From: Shinella fusca
GTDB taxonomy: Bacteria > Pseudomonadota > Alphaproteobacteria > Rhizobiales > Rhizobiaceae
Reading direction: 5' to 3'
Assembly (NCBI RefSeq): GCF_014203155.1
Contig: NZ_JACHIK010000011.1
Coordinates: 1 to 64,000, forward strand
Length of the DNA stretch: 64,000 nt
Every line of letters starts with the position of its first letter. Within the stretch, counting starts at the first letter, position 1. The position numbers and the translations under genes were made by a program. The notes beneath the pieces were generated by a model that made no database searches, was not told the DNA's origin, and was given only the letters and a program-made list of their open reading frames with translations. Shown here piece after piece: positions 1 through 21,651 of the stretch.

Positions 1-239
1 AGAAACCTTAGAGCGAGTGAACTGGCCGCCAGAAGCGCCCAACGCCCTCTCGATGAGCGGCGTTATAAGCCCACCCCCAGCGATACGTCAACAGGGGGAG
101 GAAAGAAAAATCAGAAAAAATTCCAGTTTCCGAATTGTTAAGCACAATCAACGGATTGGCGGTGCATAGACTGAATGTCGGGGATAAGGACCAGCCCGGC
201 GCTTGACTCTTGCCCAATTCGGGAAGCCGCCCGGCACGT
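1..239. other. Left-edge noncoding stretch
   Basis: No convincing gene is visible. Open frames here are short, lack a good ribosome-binding site and have no recognisable composition. The stretch is AT-richer than its surroundings around 100-150, which could be promoter sequence for a gene beyond the left edge, but nothing specific can be assigned. Confidence 0.4.
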
Positions 240-270
240 AAAAGGGGCGGCATCCGCGGATGTCGCCCCT
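240..270 (-). terminator. Intrinsic terminator of the DUF1328 gene
   Basis: A GC-rich hairpin with arms AGGGGCG and CGCCCCT lies directly after the stop codon of the minus-strand gene at 288-452. On that strand it is followed by TTTT, the form of a Rho-independent terminator. Confidence 0.75.
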
Positions 271-287
271 TCCGTCATATTCCGTCC

Positions 288-452
288 TCATGCCCTGCGG
301 AACAGGCCCGCGATCAGGGACAGGACCAGAAGGGCCAGGAAGACGAAGAACAGGATCTGCGCGATACCGGCCGAGGCGCCGGCAATGCCGCCGAAGCCGA
401 GCAGGCCGGCAACGAGGGCGATGACGAGAAACACGAGAGCGTAATACAGCAT
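288..452 (-). CDS. DUF1328 small membrane protein
   Basis: A 54-residue, almost wholly hydrophobic protein with two membrane segments (about residues 3-24 and 29-50) and a short basic C-terminal tail (FRRA). Length and sequence fit the DUF1328/YtjA family of inner-membrane proteins, whose molecular role is unknown and which are often stress-induced. The ATG at 452 was chosen because AAGGAG lies at the right distance upstream; longer upstream frames have no such site. An exact EcfG-type promoter stands about 30 bases upstream and a terminator follows, so this looks like a single-gene unit of the general stress regulon. Confidence 0.88.
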
Positions 453-482
453 TTTCGAACTCCTTCGTTGTATCGCAGGAGA

Positions 483-507
483 AACGGAGGCGGATTGAAA
501 AGGTTCC
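483..507 (-). promoter_or_regulatory. EcfG (general stress) promoter for the DUF1328 gene
   Basis: On the minus strand GGAAC (507-503) is followed after exactly 16 bases by CGTT (486-483). This is the consensus of promoters read by the alphaproteobacterial general stress sigma factor EcfG/RpoE2. The -10 element lies about 30 bases before the start codon at 452. Confidence 0.8.
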
Positions 508-546
508 GGAATTCCGCCTTCACCCCTCCCCTTCCCCCAAAAGAAA

Positions 547-573
547 CCGCCGCACCCTTGCGGGATGCGGCGG
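547..573 (-). terminator. Intrinsic terminator of the CsbD gene
   Basis: A hairpin with arms CCGCCGCA and TGCGGCGG lies downstream of the csbD-like gene and is followed on the minus strand by TTTCTTTT. Confidence 0.75.
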
Positions 574-600
574 CGCATGGGAAGCCGGCAGGCGGAGAGC

Positions 601-798
601 CTAGTGGCGGCGCGTCCAGTCGTCGATCTGCCGCTCGGCCTCATCCTTCGCAATGCCGTAACGCTGCTGGATCTTGCCCGAAAGCTCGACGCGACGGCCC
701 TGGATGACGTCGAGGTCGTCATCGGTGAGCTTGCCCCACTGGGCCTGGGCCTTGCCCTTGTATTCGTTCCACTTGCCTTCGATGATGTCCCAGTTCAT
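601..798 (-). CDS. CsbD family stress protein
   Basis: A 65-residue hydrophilic protein starting [15 protein letters not shown], the typical CsbD opening, followed by the GKLTDDDL and [10 protein letters not shown] segments of the family. CsbD-like proteins are small, soluble, abundant stress-response proteins of unknown mechanism. The start at 798 is supported by AAAGGA upstream; a start 17 codons earlier is possible but has no such site. It is flanked by other small stress-type genes and has an imperfect EcfG-like promoter upstream, so membership of the general stress regulon is likely but less secure than for its neighbours. Confidence 0.9.
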
Positions 799-847
799 GT
801 CGCTGTCCTTTCTGTTGCGTTGAGCGGATGGCGTTGACGCAAAAGAC

Positions 848-872
848 AATCTTCCGGGCCGCGAAAAGTTCC
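848..872 (-). promoter_or_regulatory. Imperfect EcfG-like promoter for the CsbD gene
   Basis: GGAAC (872-868, minus strand) followed by 16 bases and GATT (851-848). The -35 element is exact, but the -10 keeps only part of CGTT, so this is a weaker match than the neighbouring promoters. Confidence 0.4.
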
Positions 873-876
873 GGGC

Positions 877-1212
877 TTAGGGAAGCCGGGCCTCTCCTTT
901 CACGGGCTGCGCCGTCGCGACGATGACATCGCCGGATGGCGGCGCGACGAGGCGGACATCGACGACCAAACCGCTTTCCTTCGTCATGCGCCAACTGATC
1001 TCGACGTCCTCCTCGGTCCAGGCCGGATCGATGGCGGCGCAGCGGCCGTGCACGATCCTTGCGCCATCGCCGGCGCTGCCGATGGCGAGCGGCAGGACGC
1101 CGACGCAGTCTTCCATGGTCTCGTAGGCGACCTGCGGCGCGGCCAGCTCCCCGCAGGAAAGGCCGCCCTTGCTGCAGCCGACCAGAAGCATGATTGCGGC
1201 GATGTGCTCCAT
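877..1212 (-). CDS. Conserved small protein of unknown function
   Basis: A 111-residue protein that I do not recognise. It opens with a short hydrophobic stretch ending in a cysteine (about residues 5-13, IAAIMLLVGC), which could be a weak lipoprotein or export signal, and it has two further cysteines (C20 and C36) near the N-terminus. The rest is a mixed, probably globular domain. The start at 1212 is preceded by AGGAAGGA. An exact EcfG-type promoter stands 36 bases upstream and diverges from the one driving the DUF3309 gene, so it is probably made under general stress control. Confidence 0.65.
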   Translation of the reverse strand: MEHIAAIMLLVGCSKGGLSCGELAAPQVAYETMEDCVGVLPLAIGSAGDGARIVHGRCAAIDPAWTEEDVEISWRMTKESGLVVDVRLVAPPSGDVIVATAQPVKGEARLP

Positions 1213-1247
1213 CTCGCTCTTCCTTCCTGTGCGTTCCTGCGGCAGGC

Positions 1248-1272
1248 AACGGAGCGGAGGCCGGAAGGTTCC
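1248..1272 (-). promoter_or_regulatory. EcfG promoter for the small unknown gene at 877-1212
   Basis: Minus-strand GGAAC (1272-1268), a 16-base spacer and CGTT (1251-1248): an exact match to the EcfG/RpoE2 consensus. It is divergent from, and only 35 bases away from, the next EcfG promoter. Confidence 0.8.
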
Positions 1273-1307
1273 CGGGACGGCGCGGTCACGTCGATGTCAC
1301 TTTTACG

Positions 1308-1332
1308 GGAACAAAATCCGTTGTTGCCCGTT
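1308..1332 (+). promoter_or_regulatory. EcfG promoter for the DUF3309-lipoprotein unit
   Basis: GGAAC (1308-1312), a 16-base spacer and CGTT (1329-1332): an exact EcfG/RpoE2 consensus, 46 bases before the start codon at 1379. Confidence 0.8.
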
Positions 1333-1378
1333 TTCGGCCCAACGCTGGACAGCGAACAGGACGCGAAAGGAAGCGCAG

Positions 1379-1534
1379 ATGCTCGGTACCATTCTTCTCA
1401 TCATCCTCATCCTCCTCCTGATCGGCGCCCTGCCGAACTGGGGTTACAGCCGGAGCTGGGGTTACGGCCCGTCCGGCGGGCTCGGCCTCATCGTCGTCAT
1501 CCTTCTCATCCTCGTCCTCATGGGACGCATCTGA
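1379..1534 (+). CDS. DUF3309 family small membrane protein
   Basis: A 51-residue protein made of two strongly hydrophobic segments (residues 2-18 and 36-48) joined by a Gly/Tyr/Trp/Ser-rich turn (NWGYSRSWGYG). This is the hallmark of the DUF3309 family, which is common in alphaproteobacteria and of unknown function. The start is preceded by GAAAGGAAG. It sits behind an exact EcfG promoter and 29 bases before a glycine-zipper lipoprotein gene on the same strand, so the two are probably cotranscribed under general stress control. Confidence 0.88.
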   Translation: MLGTILLIILILLLIGALPNWGYSRSWGYGPSGGLGLIVVILLILVLMGRI

Positions 1535-1563
1535 CCCCGTCAACCCAACCTGGAGCAGGAACC

Positions 1564-1827
1564 ATGAAGAATACAATCATCGCGATTTGCCTTGCCGCGT
1601 CCTCCCTGACCCTGGCCGCCTGCAGCGAGACCGAACGCGGGACCGCGATCGGGGCGGCTTCGGGCGCCATCATCGGCGGTGCGGTGACCGGACGGGCGGG
1701 CGGCGCGCTGGTGGGGGCCGCCGTCGGCGGCACCGCAGGCTATCTCATCGCCCGCTCCGACCGGCGCGGCTATTGCCTCTATCGCGACCGCTACGGCCAT
1801 CGCTACGAAGCCCGTTGCCGCCGCTAA
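1564..1827 (+). CDS. Glycine-zipper outer-membrane lipoprotein
   Basis: An 87-residue protein with a lipoprotein signal peptide ending LTLAAC, so that Cys20 would become the lipidated first residue. A glycine-zipper segment follows (about residues 28-63, repeated GAxxGAxxGG pattern). The C-terminus carries a YCLYRDRYGHRYEARC stretch with two cysteines. Such proteins (OmpA/SlyB-like glycine zippers) insert in or associate with the outer membrane; no specific function is known for this one. It lies 29 bases after the DUF3309 gene and shares its EcfG promoter. A hairpin terminator follows. Confidence 0.82.
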   Translation: MKNTIIAICLAASSLTLAACSETERGTAIGAASGAIIGGAVTGRAGGALVGAAVGGTAGYLIARSDRRGYCLYRDRYGHRYEARCRR

Positions 1828-1842
1828 CCGGCACAGGCCAGC

Positions 1843-1874
1843 AAAAAAGGGAAACGGGCCTTGCGGCCCGTTTC
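1843..1874. terminator. Bidirectional hairpin terminator between the lipoprotein gene and nepR
   Basis: A 10-base-pair hairpin (GAAACGGGCC / GGCCCGTTTC, loop TTGC) lies between two convergent genes. The better T-tract (CCTTTTTTGC) is on the minus strand, after nepR; the plus-strand side has only a short T-run. Confidence 0.75.
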
Positions 1875-1905
1875 CTCATGTCCAGATGCGGGAAGTTGGA
1901 TGATC

Positions 1906-2100
1906 CTAAGGACAACTCTTCGCTCGACGTTCAGCTTCGTCGAGCTTTTCCAGAAGATCGAGCAGGCGGTCGGGCACGGGCTCGGTCTCGATCACGTCAT
2001 AAAAGGATTTCAGCTTGCGGCCGATCGCACCGTTCGGGTCGAAAGCCTTCGCGGGAGCGGCGGCACCGCCCCGTTTTTTGTCTTTGCCGGACTCGATCAT
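1906..2100 (-). CDS. nepR: NepR family anti-sigma factor
   Basis: A 64-residue protein with the NepR core: a basic, Ala/Gly-rich N-terminus, then IGRKLKSFYDVI and PVPDRLLDLLEKLDEAE, the two short helices that clamp the sigma factor EcfG. In unstressed cells NepR holds EcfG; phosphorylated PhyR pulls NepR away (partner switching). It is divergent from phyR, as is usual. However, no EcfG sigma gene follows it: the transcript runs into a terminator and a convergent gene. From memory, this resembles the second S. meliloti locus (rsiB2, with rsiA2 as the NepR paralog) rather than the primary nepR-ecfG operon. Confidence 0.88.
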   Translation of the reverse strand: MIESGKDKKRGGAAAPAKAFDPNGAIGRKLKSFYDVIETEPVPDRLLDLLEKLDEAERRAKSCP

Positions 2101-2208
2101 GGTCTTGTTTCCATCGCCTGCCGACCGCTATCTTCCTTTTGCCCAATATTCTCAATAGCAAGTCAGACTCAGCATGCTACCAATAGGTTTCCGCATCATG
2201 AACTCTAG

Positions 2209-2222
2209 CGGAAACGGTTCCG
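2209..2222. promoter_or_regulatory. Inverted repeat in the nepR-phyR intergenic region
   Basis: CGGAA-ACGG-TTCCG, perfect 5-base arms, in the 149-base gap between the divergent nepR and phyR genes. A further TTTCCGC/GCGGAAA pair lies around it (2188-2214). I looked for an EcfG promoter here: GGAAC occurs on both strands but not with CGTT at the right distance. Function unknown. Confidence 0.35.
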
Positions 2223-2249
2223 ATGCGGAACACATTCAGGGAGAACGAA

Positions 2250-3050
2250 ATGTCACTTTCCACCCGTATCGCACCGCATCTCGCCTATCTGAGGCGGTTT
2301 TCCCGTGCCGTCACGGGTTCGCAGACCTCCGGTGACGCCTATGTCGCGGCGATGCTGGAAGCGCTCGTGGCCGATATCGGCCTCTTTCCGGACGGCCGCA
2401 GCGACCGGATCGCCCTCTACCGGCTCTATTGCACGCTGTTCGACAACCTCGACGTGACGCTGCCGGACAATTCCTCGCCCTTCGGCTGGGAGCGGCAGGC
2501 CGCCGCCAACCTCGCCAACCTGCCGCCGGCCGAGCGAAAGGCCTTCCTGCTCGTCGCCGTCGAGGGCTTCGACATCGCCGAGGGGGCCGACATCATGGAC
2601 GTTTCGGAAGAGCGCTTCGGCGAACTGCTCGACGAGGCCTCGCGCGACATCTCCCGGCAGGTGGCGACCGAGATCATGATCATCGAGGACGAGCCGCTGA
2701 TCGCCATGGACATCGAGGACATGGTGCGGGGGCTCGGCCATACCGTGACCGGCATTGCCCGCACCCATTCCGAGGCGGTGGAGCTCTATCACCGCACCTC
2801 GCCGCGCATGGTGCTCGCCGACATCCAGCTCGCCGACGGCAGCTCGGGCATCGACGCGGTAAACGACATCCTGAAGAACAGCACGATCCCGGTGATCTTC
2901 ATCACCGCCTTCCCGGAGCGGCTTCTGACCGGCGAGAAGCCGGAACCGGCCTTCCTCGTCACCAAGCCGTTCAACCCGGACATGGTGAAGGCGCTGATCA
3001 GCCAGGCGCTGTTCTTCGACGAACAGGCGCGGCTCGCCAAATCCGCCTGA
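2250..3050 (+). CDS. phyR: PhyR, general stress response anti-anti-sigma response regulator
   Basis: A 266-residue protein with the two-part PhyR architecture: an N-terminal sigma-factor-like domain (about residues 1-130) that mimics EcfG, and a C-terminal receiver domain from about residue 142 (MIIEDEPLIAMDIED). The receiver has the acidic pair E/D near its start, the phospho-acceptor Asp191 in LADIQLADG and the conserved Lys239 in VTKPF. On phosphorylation the sigma-like domain binds NepR and frees EcfG. The ATG at 2250 is chosen for the GGGAGAAC site upstream; an earlier start at 2223 lacks one. A strong terminator follows the stop codon. Confidence 0.95.
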   Translation: MSLSTRIAPHLAYLRRFSRAVTGSQTSGDAYVAAMLEALVADIGLFPDGRSDRIALYRLYCTLFDNLDVTLPDNSSPFGWERQAAANLANLPPAERKAFLLVAVEGFDIAEGADIMDVSEERFGELLDEASRDISRQVATEIMIIEDEPLIAMDIEDMVRGLGHTVTGIARTHSEAVELYHRTSPRMVLADIQLADGSSGIDAVNDILKNSTIPVIFITAFPERLLTGEKPEPAFLVTKPFNPDMVKALISQALFFDEQARLAKSA

Positions 3051-15817: not shown

Positions 15818-15832
15818 TTAATAAAGCGTTAA
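15818..15832 (+). promoter_or_regulatory. CtrA box upstream of cbrA
   Basis: TTAA-N7-TTAA, an exact match to the binding motif of the cell-cycle master regulator CtrA, 41 bases before the cbrA start codon. Confidence 0.65.
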
Positions 15833-15872: not shown

Positions 15873-18800
15873 ATGTCCGCAAAGCAGTATCCCTTTATCG
15901 ACGTCGCCGTCCACGAGCGGGTGCGCCTGCCCTTCGCAAGGGGCGAGGCCGTCGTGCTGTTTTCAAGGGACATGGCGCGCGTGCTCTGGTCGAACGGGCG
16001 CGGCGCGGCACTCTTCGGCGAAGAGAACATCTACGACTTCCTCGATGCCGGCCCGGACCGCACCGACGTCGCCTTCCGCCAGCTTGCCGCCACCGCCGGG
16101 CAGGTACGGACGCCCGGCGAGCGGCGGGCCTTCGTCATGCGCATCGGCAACGGCTTCCGCAGCGTGCCGGTGAACGCTGCCGTCGAGGCGGTGACCCTTC
16201 GTCCCGGCGAGGATGCGATCCTCTTCAGCGCGCCCGTCGCAGATGGCGGGGCGGAGGAAGCGGCCGCGGCCATGCTCGCCGGCTTCGACGATCCCGACAC
16301 GCACATGGCCGTGCTCGACGGCGAAGGCGCCGTCGTGGCCGCCTCGGAGGGTTTCGCGGCGCTTGCCATCAGCCCGGAGACGCGCCGCGCCCTGGTGGAG
16401 GCGGCCGGCCGCAGCGCCGAGCGCCTCGTCAAGCGCCCCATCGCCACCGGCCTCGGCCACCTGCCCGCCGCCATCGGCCGCATTTCCGACGATCCGGCGC
16501 TGCACCTTCTCTTCGCCGTCGAAACCATTCTCGGCCATCTCGATCCCGACGAGGACGAGGCCGCACCCGAGGTGCACGCCGAGCCCGAGCCCGTCGTCCC
16601 GGCGGAGGCATCGCCGGAGGAAGCGGCCGAGCCGGCTTCCGTCTCCGAGGTCGCCGCCCACGGCGACGAGACGGCGCGCGCCTACGCGCTTGCCGAGGAG
16701 GACGAACTGGAGGCCGCAGAGTTCTCCGCCGCCGAAACGGAAGATGTGCCGGACGCGGTCGACGCGGCTCCTGTCTCCGTCGATGAGATCGTCCCCGAAG
16801 ACCACAGCCCTGCCGACGAGGCGGACGAAACGGCAGGCGGCTTCATCTTCAATCCGCAGGGCAGGCCGATCCGCTTCGTCTGGAAGATCGACGCCGAAGG
16901 CCGGTTCAGCGAGGTTTCCGACGAATTCTCCGCTGCCGTCGGCCCGCATGCCGCGGCCATTGCCGGCGAGCGCTTCACCGACGTCGCCGCCCGGTTCGAC
17001 CTCGATCCCGAAGGCAAGATCGGCGACCTGCTGCGCCGGCGCGACACCTGGTCGGGCAAGACGATCCTCTGGCCGGTGGAAGGCACGCGCCTCGTCGTGC
17101 CGGTCGACCTCGCCGCCCTGCCGACCTATTCGCGCAACCGCGAATTCGACGGTTTCCGCGGCTTCGGCATCGTGCGCATCGCCGATGCGACCGAGGACGC
17201 CCATGCCCGCGGCCTGACGCTCGGTGCGGCCGAGGCCGAGGACGCAGCCCCGGCGGAAGAAGCAGCCGCCGAAGAGGAAACGCCGGTCTTGGACGATGCG
17301 GCCGGCGACGCCCCGGCAATGGAAGCGCAAGAGCAGCCCTCAACGCCGCCCGCCGACGAAGAGGATGCCTTCCGCGGCGAGCGCCCTGCCCTTCGCCTCG
17401 TCGAGAACCCGAGCCGCCGGCAGTCGGACAAGGTGGTGCAGCTCGAAACGCGGCGCAACCGCGGCGGCCTCTTCGACGGCCTTTCCACCGGCGAGCAGGC
17501 AGCCTTCCGCGAGATCGCCCGCCAGCTCGGCGAGACCTTCGGCAAGCGCAAGCCGGATGACCGTCCGCCGGGCGACCCGATGGGCGCTGCCGGAGAGACG
17601 GAAGAGAAGGCCCCTGAAGAACACGGCGCCGCCGAGGAGCCGGCGGAGGAAATGCCCGGCCTCGAAGTCGGCCCCCATGCCGACGACATGCTGGCCGAAG
17701 ATCACGGCGGCGACCGCGCGGCCATCGCGCCGCCGCGCCGGCAGATGGACTACGGCCTCACGGCCGCCGTCGTCGACGCGCTGCCCGTCGCGCTGCTCGT
17801 CCATGTCGGCGACCGGCTGATCCACGCCAATCCGGAATTCTTTCGCCTGACCGGCTACGGCAGCATCGGGGACCTCGAAGCCTCCGGCGGGCTCGACATC
17901 CTGCTGGCCGGCCCCGACGAGGACACGGAAGACGGCAGCGGCACGATGAACCTGCGCCATGCGGACGGGGAGACGACGAGCGCGGTGCGCGCCCGCCTCC
18001 AGTCGATCCGCTGGGAAGACGGCACGGCCCTCCTCCTGGCGCTGACGCCGGCGCATGAAAAGCCGGTGCTCTCGCTGGTCGAGACCGCGCCCGCCCCGGC
18101 GGATGCAGACGAGCGCACGGGCGAGCAGGCGGCCATCTCGGCGCTGCGCATCGAGGTCAGCGAGTTGCGCTCGATCCTGGAGACGGCGACGGACGGCGTC
18201 GTGGTGGTGGGCCAGGACGGCGACATCCGCTCGATGAACCGCTCGGCGAGCGCCCTCTTCAACTATGACGAGGACGAGACGCGCGGCCGGCCCTTCGCCA
18301 TGCTCTTCGCCCATGAGAGCCAGAAGGCGGTGCTCGACTATCTCGCGGGCCTCTCCGGCCACGGCGTCGCGAGCGTTCTCAACGACGGGCGCGAGGTGAT
18401 CGGCCGCGAGGCTGCCGGCGGCTTCATTCCCCTCTTCATGACGATGGGGCGCCTCTCTTCGTCTTCCGGCTATTGCGCCGTCATCCGCGACATCACGCAG
18501 TGGAAACGCACCGAGGAGGAGCTGCGCAACGCCAAGCGCGCCGCCGAGACGGCGAACGCCCACAAGAGCGATTTCCTCGCCCGCGTCAGCCACGAGATCC
18601 GCACGCCCCTCAACGCCATCATCGGCTTTTCCGACATGATGGCGACGGAGCGCTTCGGGCCGATCGGCCATCCGCGCTATATCGAATATGCCAACGATAT
18701 CGGCCGATCCGGCCGGCACGTGCTCGACATCGTCAACGACCTCCTCGACATTTCCAAGATCGAGGCGGGCGAGATGGAGCTGGAATTCACGGCGGTCGGG

Positions 18801-19262
18801 CTCAACGAGACGATCTCGGAGGCCGTGTCGCTGGTGCAGCCGCAGGCGAACGCCCAGCGGGTCATCATCCGCACCTCGCTGTCTGCCAATGTGCCGCAGA
18901 TCGTCGCCGACCTGCGCTCGATCAAGCAGATCGCGCTCAACATCCTGTCGAACGCCATCCGCTTCACGCCGGCCGGCGGGCAGATCGTCGTGTCCACCGC
19001 CTACGAGGCGAACGGCAGCGTGGTGCTGCGCATCCGCGACACCGGCGTCGGCATGACGCGCAGCGAGCTTGAACAGGCGATGAAGCCCTTCCGGCAGGTG
19101 ACGACGGGCGCGCGCAAGCGCGGCGACGGCACCGGCCTCGGCCTGCCGCTGACCAAGGCGATGGTGGATGCCAACCGGGCGAGCTTCGCCATCAGCTCCA
19201 CGCCCAACGAGGGCACGCTGGTGGAGGTGGTCTTCCCTTCCCCGCGGGTGCTGGCGGACTGA
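15873..19262 (+). CDS. cbrA: PdhS/CbrA-type PAS sensor histidine kinase (cell cycle)
   Basis: A 1129-residue kinase without obvious membrane helices. The N-terminal part contains PAS-like folds near residues 10-120 and 320-400, separated by long acidic Ala/Glu/Pro-rich linkers (about 225-320 and 450-620). Two clear PAS domains follow (about 630-740 and 765-885), then the phosphoacceptor His907 in VSHEIRTPLNAIIGFSD and an ATPase domain with the N-box (NILSNAIRF, about 1025), DTGVGM and GTGLGLPLTKAM. The HEIRTPLNAIIGFSD box followed by FGPIGHPRYIEYANDI is the signature of the PleC/DivJ/PdhS group that acts on DivK and thereby CtrA. Gene order (phasin, kinase, acetoacetyl-CoA synthetase) matches S. 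meliloti cbrA from memory. Confidence 0.88.
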   Translation: MSAKQYPFIDVAVHERVRLPFARGEAVVLFSRDMARVLWSNGRGAALFGEENIYDFLDAGPDRTDVAFRQLAATAGQVRTPGERRAFVMRIGNGFRSVPVNAAVEAVTLRPGEDAILFSAPVADGGAEEAAAAMLAGFDDPDTHMAVLDGEGAVVAASEGFAALAISPETRRALVEAAGRSAERLVKRPIATGLGHLPAAIGRISDDPALHLLFAVETILGHLDPDEDEAAPEVHAEPEPVVPAEASPEEAAEPASVSEVAAHGDETARAYALAEEDELEAAEFSAAETEDVPDAVDAAPVSVDEIVPEDHSPADEADETAGGFIFNPQGRPIRFVWKIDAEGRFSEVSDEFSAAVGPHAAAIAGERFTDVAARFDLDPEGKIGDLLRRRDTWSGKTILWPVEGTRLVVPVDLAALPTYSRNREFDGFRGFGIVRIADATEDAHARGLTLGAAEAEDAAPAEEAAAEEETPVLDDAAGDAPAMEAQEQPSTPPADEEDAFRGERPALRLVENPSRRQSDKVVQLETRRNRGGLFDGLSTGEQAAFREIARQLGETFGKRKPDDRPPGDPMGAAGETEEKAPEEHGAAEEPAEEMPGLEVGPHADDMLAEDHGGDRAAIAPPRRQMDYGLTAAVVDALPVALLVHVGDRLIHANPEFFRLTGYGSIGDLEASGGLDILLAGPDEDTEDGSGTMNLRHADGETTSAVRARLQSIRWEDGTALLLALTPAHEKPVLSLVETAPAPADADERTGEQAAISALRIEVSELRSILETATDGVVVVGQDGDIRSMNRSASALFNYDEDETRGRPFAMLFAHESQKAVLDYLAGLSGHGVASVLNDGREVIGREAAGGFIPLFMTMGRLSSSSGYCAVIRDITQWKRTEEELRNAKRAAETANAHKSDFLARVSHEIRTPLNAIIGFSDMMATERFGPIGHPRYIEYANDIGRSGRHVLDIVNDLLDISKIEAGEMELEFTAVGLNETISEAVSLVQPQANAQRVIIRTSLSANVPQIVADLRSIKQIALNILSNAIRFTPAGGQIVVSTAYEANGSVVLRIRDTGVGMTRSELEQAMKPFRQVTTGARKRGDGTGLGLPLTKAMVDANRASFAISSTPNEGTLVEVVFPSPRVLAD

Positions 19263-19279: not shown

Positions 19280-19424
19280 TAAAAAAGAGGGCGGCATGCG
19301 CCGCCCCGATAGTTTGAATGCTGTCCAACAAAAGCGTGGGTGAACGGCTTCATGCCATCGGGGCCGGGAGGACCGGAACGCCCATCATCGGGCGCGCTCA
19401 AGTTGGCACGACCTTGCGCCGTCC
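19280..19424 (-). ncRNA. Candidate general-stress small RNA
   Basis: Between cbrA and acsA2 the minus strand carries an exact EcfG promoter (19455-19431) and, about 145 bases downstream, an intrinsic terminator (stem 19306-19289, then TCTTTTTTAT). Three hairpins fit the predicted RNA. The first is CGCCC/GGGCG at 19394-19379. The second is CCGG/CCGG at 19376-19364, with loop UCCUC that exposes an anti-Shine-Dalgarno sequence. The third is the terminator stem. No convincing protein is encoded; a frame starting at 19353 lacks a ribosome-binding site. The start is inferred from the promoter, so the 5' end is uncertain by several bases. The RNA could instead be a leader or read-through tail, but the independent promoter argues for a stand-alone sRNA. 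Confidence 0.55.
19281..19306 (-). terminator. Intrinsic terminator of the candidate sRNA (and possibly acsA2)
   Basis: GGGCGGC-GCAT-GCCGCCC stem (minus strand) followed by TCTTTTTTAT. It lies 214 bases beyond the acsA2 stop codon. Confidence 0.85.
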
Positions 19425-19430
19425 CGGCTT

Positions 19431-19455
19431 AACGAATCCTTACCTGGCCCGTTCC
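19431..19455 (-). promoter_or_regulatory. Orphan EcfG promoter in the cbrA-acsA2 gap
   Basis: Minus-strand GGAAC (19455-19451), a 16-base spacer and CGTT (19434-19431): an exact EcfG consensus that points into a gene-free region ending in a terminator. Confidence 0.7.
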
Positions 19456-19519: not shown

Positions 19520-21472
<1,953 letters not shown>

Positions 21473-21651
21473 GCTGTCCTCCACTCCATGGCCTGATATA
21501 GCATGTTGCGCCGCGGTATAAAGCGCCGAACGCCGGATCGCGCCGTCGCCGCGCGCAATTCCGCCACGGCGGCATTTGATTTCTTTCGCCCGAGCGCCTA
21601 TCCCCGTTCGACCTGAGACATGAATGCGCCCGGCAGAGGAACTGCGCCTGA

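Follow-up and report, generated by a model that had tools for sequence, protein, structure and literature searches.

The gap between acsA2 and cbrA in Shinella fusca appears, with strong support from sequence comparison, to hold a small-RNA gene that is common to many rhizobia and their relatives. It lies in the window, the 64,000-nucleotide stretch of DNA analysed here, and spans from the acsA2 stop (19520) to the convergent cbrA stop (19262). As the first-pass annotation had stated, no annotated-type gene is present between these two stops. We propose that the gap is an independent, family-wide sRNA gene with a CtrA-driven box promoter, starting at about 19405 and ending at about 19281, and we assign this reading a probability of roughly 0.68. 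The presence of the RNA gene and of a TTAA-N7-TTAA box before it seems well supported. New here are the CtrA-type box, the reach across the family and the correction of an earlier general-stress reading, for an RNA that has no Rfam match. The features concerned are as follows.

15818-15832, plus strand: TTAA-N7-TTAA, some 40 bases upstream of the cbrA start; no other full match occurs in the window (0.03 expected)
15873-19262, plus strand: cbrA, PdhS/DivJ-type histidine kinase, convergent neighbour of the RNA in some genomes (best NCBIfam models below their cut-offs)
19281-19307, minus strand: Rho-independent terminator, stem plus T tract (terminator scan; the stem, helix 4, covaries in relatives)
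19281-19405, minus strand: predicted sRNA of about 125 nt with a closing helix, internal hairpins, unpaired ACAGCA and the terminator (covariance models R1-R3, covariation)
19411-19416, minus strand: possible -10 element CAAGGT, strongly conserved in 20 Shinella, with a putative role
19429-19443, minus strand: CtrA-type box GTAA-N7-TTAA, about -38 to -24 of the predicted start, conserved in relatives
19431-19455, minus strand: EcfG-like GGAAC-N16-CGTT, an exact motif match that shares GTT with the CtrA-type box and is not conserved
19517-19512 and 19496-19491, minus strand: two GTTAAC sites, 21 bases apart, upstream of the RNA
19520-21484, minus strand: acsA2, acetoacetate-CoA ligase, usual upstream neighbour of the RNA (TIGR01217 above cut-off)

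The kinase keeps the name cbrA from the first-pass annotation, with the synteny of S. meliloti as background.

Reach and structure of the RNA family

A blastn search with the gap detected the RNA in 20 of 21 Shinella genomes, its own included, with one match each and identities of 73-91% in the other Shinella genomes. In one Shinella genome (G002), it was found neither by blastn nor in a further search. Among the matches listed, the RNA is present in at least four contigs of named Shinella, and the Shinella curvata contig is identical to a same-genus locus (L013) over 1365 bases. In a sample of 297 genomes of the GTDB family, blastn gave matches in 15, two of which were short and spurious (L028 and L031, of 28 and 27 bases and without the RNA) and were left out of later counts.

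Two covariance models were searched against the same family sample. R1, which describes the box plus the RNA and was built from 28 rows, found the RNA in 91 of 297 genomes at E <= 0.01, spread over 44 of the 109 genera. R2, which describes the RNA alone with the box excluded, matched 91 of 297 genomes in 38 genera. The two models together matched 117 of 297 genomes, 65 of them matched by both, a union in which the weakest matches are included unverified. From the family genomes matched by R1, 66 loci were examined (L036-L101); G278, G285, G058 and nearly all R1 matches weaker than about E 1.6e-5 fall outside this set. L032-L035 repeat Shinella rows, and a second copy in G248 was not used (contamination 9%). 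Of the 26 genomes matched by R2 only, 20 were examined, leaving out G096, G116, G120, G222, G299 and G300. The models also gave weak second matches in some genomes.

Carriers of the box plus the RNA among the matches listed include Shinella, Sinorhizobium sp. A49 and Rhizobium alarense, and further carriers among them are many Mesorhizobium, Nitratireductor and Aquamicrobium. When R2 was run with strict filters over 397 genomes of the order, all 16 matches (E <= 0.001) belonged to the same family; these filters missed some genomes of a genus that carries the RNA elsewhere, and absence outside the family is unproven.

For structural analysis, 61 of 85 rows were placed in two alignments: A3, of the Shinella/Sinorhizobium type (36 rows), and A4, of the Mesorhizobium type (25 rows). 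The rows outside both are 12 Shinella rows and L062, L063, L070, L072, L075, L076, L079, L088, L091, L093, L096 and L100. A3 has CCAAC paired with GUUGG as its closing helix, then the first hairpin, a small one whose loop contains CAUGA, and the terminator. With a consensus structure read off the alignment, a choice biased in its favour, 91.8% of A3 cells were paired (83.4% when shuffled) and 84 cells showed double changes (31.5 when shuffled), values that none of 500 shuffles reached. Pairs with a double change numbered 11 versus 8.3 in shuffles, 19 of 500 of which reached the real count. Sliding the partners by 1-3 columns lowered pairing to 27-56%. In A4, the helices are CAAC with GUUG and an invariant UUGA with UCAA. 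Pairing there was 89.3% versus 87.4% in shuffles, the 4 pairs with double changes versus 2.6 were not significant (92 of 500 shuffles), and one slid control equalled the real count of 11 double-change cells. The support for the A4 structure thus appears to be mostly sequence conservation. Covariation of the hairpins, suggested earlier as a check, is present in A3 for the closing helix, the first and CAUGA hairpins and the terminator; it is weak in A4, and the second hairpin was too variable to be aligned.

The terminator described by the first-pass annotation is present as an 8-pair stem (19307-19288) followed by CTTTTTT and is kept in relatives; the scan that detected it gave 9 sites overall versus 9.6 expected. 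That annotation had also folded a 144-nt RNA into three hairpins. The hairpins are there, but at 144 nt the RNA folds only slightly better than its shuffled versions, 11 of 200 of which did as well (z -1.59). Folded from 19405, a 5' end placed from the box and the helix start, the window RNA reached z -2.52 (3 of 200 shuffles as good). Among five RNAs folded singly, Shinella L003 alone gave the full consensus (z -4.0, 0 of 200 shuffles as good), and z was -2.36 for L054, -2.25 for L045 and -1.52 for L067. The minimum-energy fold of the window RNA differs from the consensus because AUCGGGG at the terminator offers CCCCGAU another partner, and this alternative fold (19281-19360) would compete with termination in the window RNA.

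Two Shinella loci (L020, L042) lack the first and second hairpins and retain the closing helix, the CAUGA hairpin and the terminator, so the two missing hairpins look dispensable. The RNA of L088 has an insertion in the second hairpin region, giving 170 bases where the same stretch of its relatives has about 130. A small protein was considered and rejected, as the frame opening in the first loop varies in length and register across the 20 Shinella rows, two of which have no ATG. The sRNA gene that had been proposed from the window is supported by the comparison through sequence conservation, covarying helices in one large group, a kept terminator, and survival of the RNA without acsA2.

The CtrA-type box

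The best conserved element on the promoter side looks like a CtrA full site, not an EcfG promoter. CtrA full sites of Caulobacter are described as TTAA-N7-TTAA with the 5' base near -35, or at -39 in ctrA P2 (PMC4287350), and the verified S. meliloti CtrA sites are given as TAA-N7-TTAAC (PMC3616915). Of 105 loci, 91 carry TTAA-N7-TTAA with 7 or all 8 of its letters, and they represent 35 of 37 genera; they comprise all 20 Shinella loci, 52 of the 65 other R1 rows and 19 of the 20 R2-only loci. The strict form TAA-N7-TTAA occurred in 20 Shinella, 48 other R1 rows and 13 R2-only loci. Control windows taken elsewhere in these loci, subjected to the same best-of-offsets scan, reached at least 7 of 8 letters in 19 of 840 cases and the strict form in 1 of 840. 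Because R1 includes the box, the R1 rows are biased, and the 20 R2-only loci alone give clean figures.

The distance between box and RNA is nearly fixed. In the 13 strict R2-only loci, the box starts 35 (12 loci) or 36 bases (1 locus) before the model match, which corresponds to 38-39 bases before the first helix base. The 5' base of the box thus stands at about -38 from the first helix base, the transcription start itself being a prediction. L100, where the helix start was unmatched by the pattern, is absent from the spacing counts and included in the box counts.

The window box has 7 of 8 letters, with G replacing the last C of TAA-N7-TTAAC, and all seven letters are found in 20 of 20 Shinella. 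The N7 spacer varies (GGATTTG, CCTTTCG, CAATTTG, CTGTTTT, GAGGTTG), and lineages alternate between GTAA/TTAA, TTAA/TTAA and TTAA/GTAA halves, as expected of a site that is read as two spaced halves. Fewer than 7 of 8 letters are kept in 14 of the 105 rows, among them g89 (6/8, one row), L062 (5/8) and L100 (4/8). Genus g103 (L048, L049, L050, L059) has kept the RNA with a degenerate box, GAAA-N7-TTTA, at 5 of 8 letters in all four rows, and may be a lineage in which control of the RNA has changed. Between box and helix, the segment that could serve as the -10 element reads CAAGGT or CATGGT, and GATAGT or GATATT in Mesorhizobium-type loci. A sigma-70 scan found no sigma-70-like site in the gap.

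We propose that CtrA binds the box at 19443-19429, about -38 to -24, and would recruit RNA polymerase to a promoter that has a weak -10 and lacks a clear -35, so that the RNA would be made when CtrA is active, from near 19405 to near 19281. The transcript would fold around the closing helix, and the terminator would end it. More tentatively, the RNA may act in trans by pairing with mRNAs through unpaired conserved segments, for which ACAGCA before the terminator and the CAUGA loop of the Shinella/Sinorhizobium-type group are candidates. If this is true, the CtrA regulon would have a post-transcriptional output through a conserved RNA.

Gene neighbours and alternative readings

A wider reading would make the RNA the post-transcriptional arm of a CtrA-CbrA-DivK loop, in which CtrA drives both cbrA and the convergent RNA. 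TAA-N7-TTAA occurs at two places in the window, before the RNA and before cbrA (shuffle mean 0.13 matches), and the S. meliloti cbrA promoter is reported as bound by CtrA in ChIP-seq, with no significant change in microarrays (PMC4433202). Since no terminator-like site was found on the plus strand within the gap, the cbrA transcript could extend antisense through the RNA gene and meet the RNA where the genes adjoin. Furthermore, 12 of 20 Shinella have the CtrA-type box overlapping the EcfG-like promoter, which could set cell-cycle control against stress control at a single start. The downstream neighbour is cbrA in 14 of 68 loci and in 7 of 20 R2-only loci, and in several other loci it is an iron-type ABC permease, judged by eye. 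We regard the loop as an unlikely extension of the proposal.

It is also improbable that the RNA is the 3' untranslated end of the acsA2 mRNA, perhaps a 3'-UTR-derived sRNA without its own promoter. The RNA shares its strand with acsA2, whose C-terminus lies upstream on the same strand in 59 of the 68 loci checked (66 from the family sample, including one Shinella locus, and two more from Shinella). The distance from the last aligned acsA2 codon to the model start is 53-326 bases in these 59 loci and at most 130 in 57, and the gap without a sigma-70-like site would fit such an origin. However, although acsA2 is also upstream in 18 of 20 loci detected by R2 alone, bringing the total to 77 of 88 checked loci, the other 11 of 88 retain the RNA without acsA2, which argues for an independent gene, and a conserved box lies upstream of the RNA at a nearly fixed distance. 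Among these 11, the five loci of genus g18 have the RNA behind a permease that resembles, by eye, the transporter permease beyond acsA2 in the window, and L054 and L058 have cbrA downstream. As neighbours change on both sides, the RNA is tied to neither. The predicted gene is thus intergenic, has its own terminator and seems untied to any one coding gene, as for a trans-sRNA. The acsA2 sequence is part of no covariance model, making its adjacency an independent criterion for weak matches, and its presence upstream of them indicates that these matches are real.

The first-pass annotation had read the gap as a general-stress sRNA, in which EcfG reads GGAAC-N16-CGTT and a 144-nt RNA from about 19424 blocks translation through a UCCUC loop. 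The exact motif is indeed there (19455-19431), and the window contains 4 such matches in all versus a shuffle mean of 0.41. The other three precede a DUF1328 gene, an unknown gene with CsbD behind it, and a DUF3309 gene; together with phyR nearby, they make the annotation's claim of real EcfG use in this genome credible. The region 1-3050, in which phyR (2223-3050) is close to three EcfG-type promoters, is in itself a credible general-stress cluster. At the gap itself, the EcfG form does no better than chance. GGAAC is correctly spaced from GTT in 12 of the 20 Shinella, but in 0 of 65 other R1 rows and 0 of 20 R2-only rows. CGTT occurs in 1 of 20 Shinella, its first letter being T in 19 of 20. 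The five -35 letters are kept in 20, 14, 18, 18 and 20 of 20 Shinella, no better than their neighbours, whereas the seven box letters are kept in all 20. Conservation in relatives, by which the earlier reading was to be judged, was found for the terminator and not for the EcfG promoter, and an EcfG-driven sRNA was rejected as a conserved mechanism (0 of 85 non-Shinella loci).

An anti-Shine-Dalgarno hairpin sRNA keeps a CU-rich anti-Shine-Dalgarno motif in its loop. The UCCUC loop claimed for the window was found in 1 of 20 Shinella rows, GCAC stood there in 12, and the hairpin was absent in two. This function was rejected, since the motif is not conserved even across the genus. The stress reading as a whole is therefore quite improbable, and its correction keeps experiments from the wrong sigma factor.

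A regulator other than CtrA, such as a MucR-type silencer, is just as improbable a reader of the box: many MucR-bound cell-cycle promoters of Caulobacter are reported to bear CtrA motifs (PMC4287350) and more TTAAC sites lie upstream of the box, but the half-sites, N7 spacing and position are those described for CtrA full sites, and the Mesorhizobium-type rows inspected do not share the upstream TTAAC pair. The GTTAAC pair had been noted correctly in the window, 21 bases apart, and aligns in Shinella and near groups as TTAACGATT and ATTAACCAA.

Comparison with known RNAs

None of 4227 Rfam families matched anywhere in the window at the gathering threshold, and E-value scans, run on the window region and on 13 relatives, gave sub-threshold matches only. 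The best weak match was MmgR/suhB (RF00519), which covered the 3' third of the window RNA with 16.6 bits against a gathering score of 41 (E 0.2-0.37) and matched none of the 13 relatives scanned. We rejected this kinship as a chance-level score. No sRNA beside acsA2 was named in the literature searched, a search that did not extend to supplementary tables.

It is plausible, on map position, that the S. meliloti counterpart of the gap RNA is SmelC151 (SMc06261). SmelC151 is listed as an uncharacterised trans-sRNA of 74 nt in strain 1021, at 843451-843524 on the plus strand (PMC7143759, Table 1 for map position), and is described as Rhizobiaceae-wide, with a typical terminator and fragmented microsynteny (PMC3927594). 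The two RNAs are likened by map position and family reach, not by sequence. By the same table, SmelC151 lies 583.5 kb after the SRP RNA (259927). The distance from the gap RNA to the SRP RNA is 578.1 kb in G091 and 572.3 kb in G234 (across a contig end), with the relative strand of SmelC151, both being chromosomes of the genus that contains Sinorhizobium sp. A49. The next S. meliloti candidate by map, SmelC165, would sit at 650.3 kb. However, the map order differs elsewhere: G157 and G303, which belong to other genera, have 454.8 kb and 491 kb, the latter on opposite strands, and the distance from 6S to SRP is 818 kb in G234 but 942 kb by the S. meliloti map. Because of these differing distances, the match to SmelC151 is suggestive only. 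RF02346 was also tried as a map marker; it proved to be ar35, which matches 5-11 times in each genome, and could not serve as an anchor. If S. meliloti retains the RNA, the proposal could be tested in laboratory strains, with the box and the models naming what to mutate.

Other RNAs with cell-cycle links offer partial likenesses. Six non-coding RNAs are reported among the transcription start sites with CtrA motifs in Caulobacter (PMC4287350), which the gap RNA may resemble in its control. GspR (SmelC775) of S. meliloti is described as about 144 nt long with three predicted stem-loops and a CtrA link (PMC5928217), but it sits between SMc03844 and SMc03845 and represses ctrA, whereas the gap RNA would be under CtrA. 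EcpR1 (SmelC291) is likewise described as a conserved Rhizobiales sRNA with a cell-cycle link (PMC4414408), but it lies at another locus, downstream of divK-pleD, with a sigma-70 promoter. Both were rejected as the identity of the gap RNA, as their reported loci differ. EcpR1 and GspR, the two S. meliloti sRNAs linked to the cell cycle in a review, are described as acting on dnaA, gcrA or ctrA (PMC7143759), and a widely conserved sRNA under CtrA, if true, would run the opposite way.
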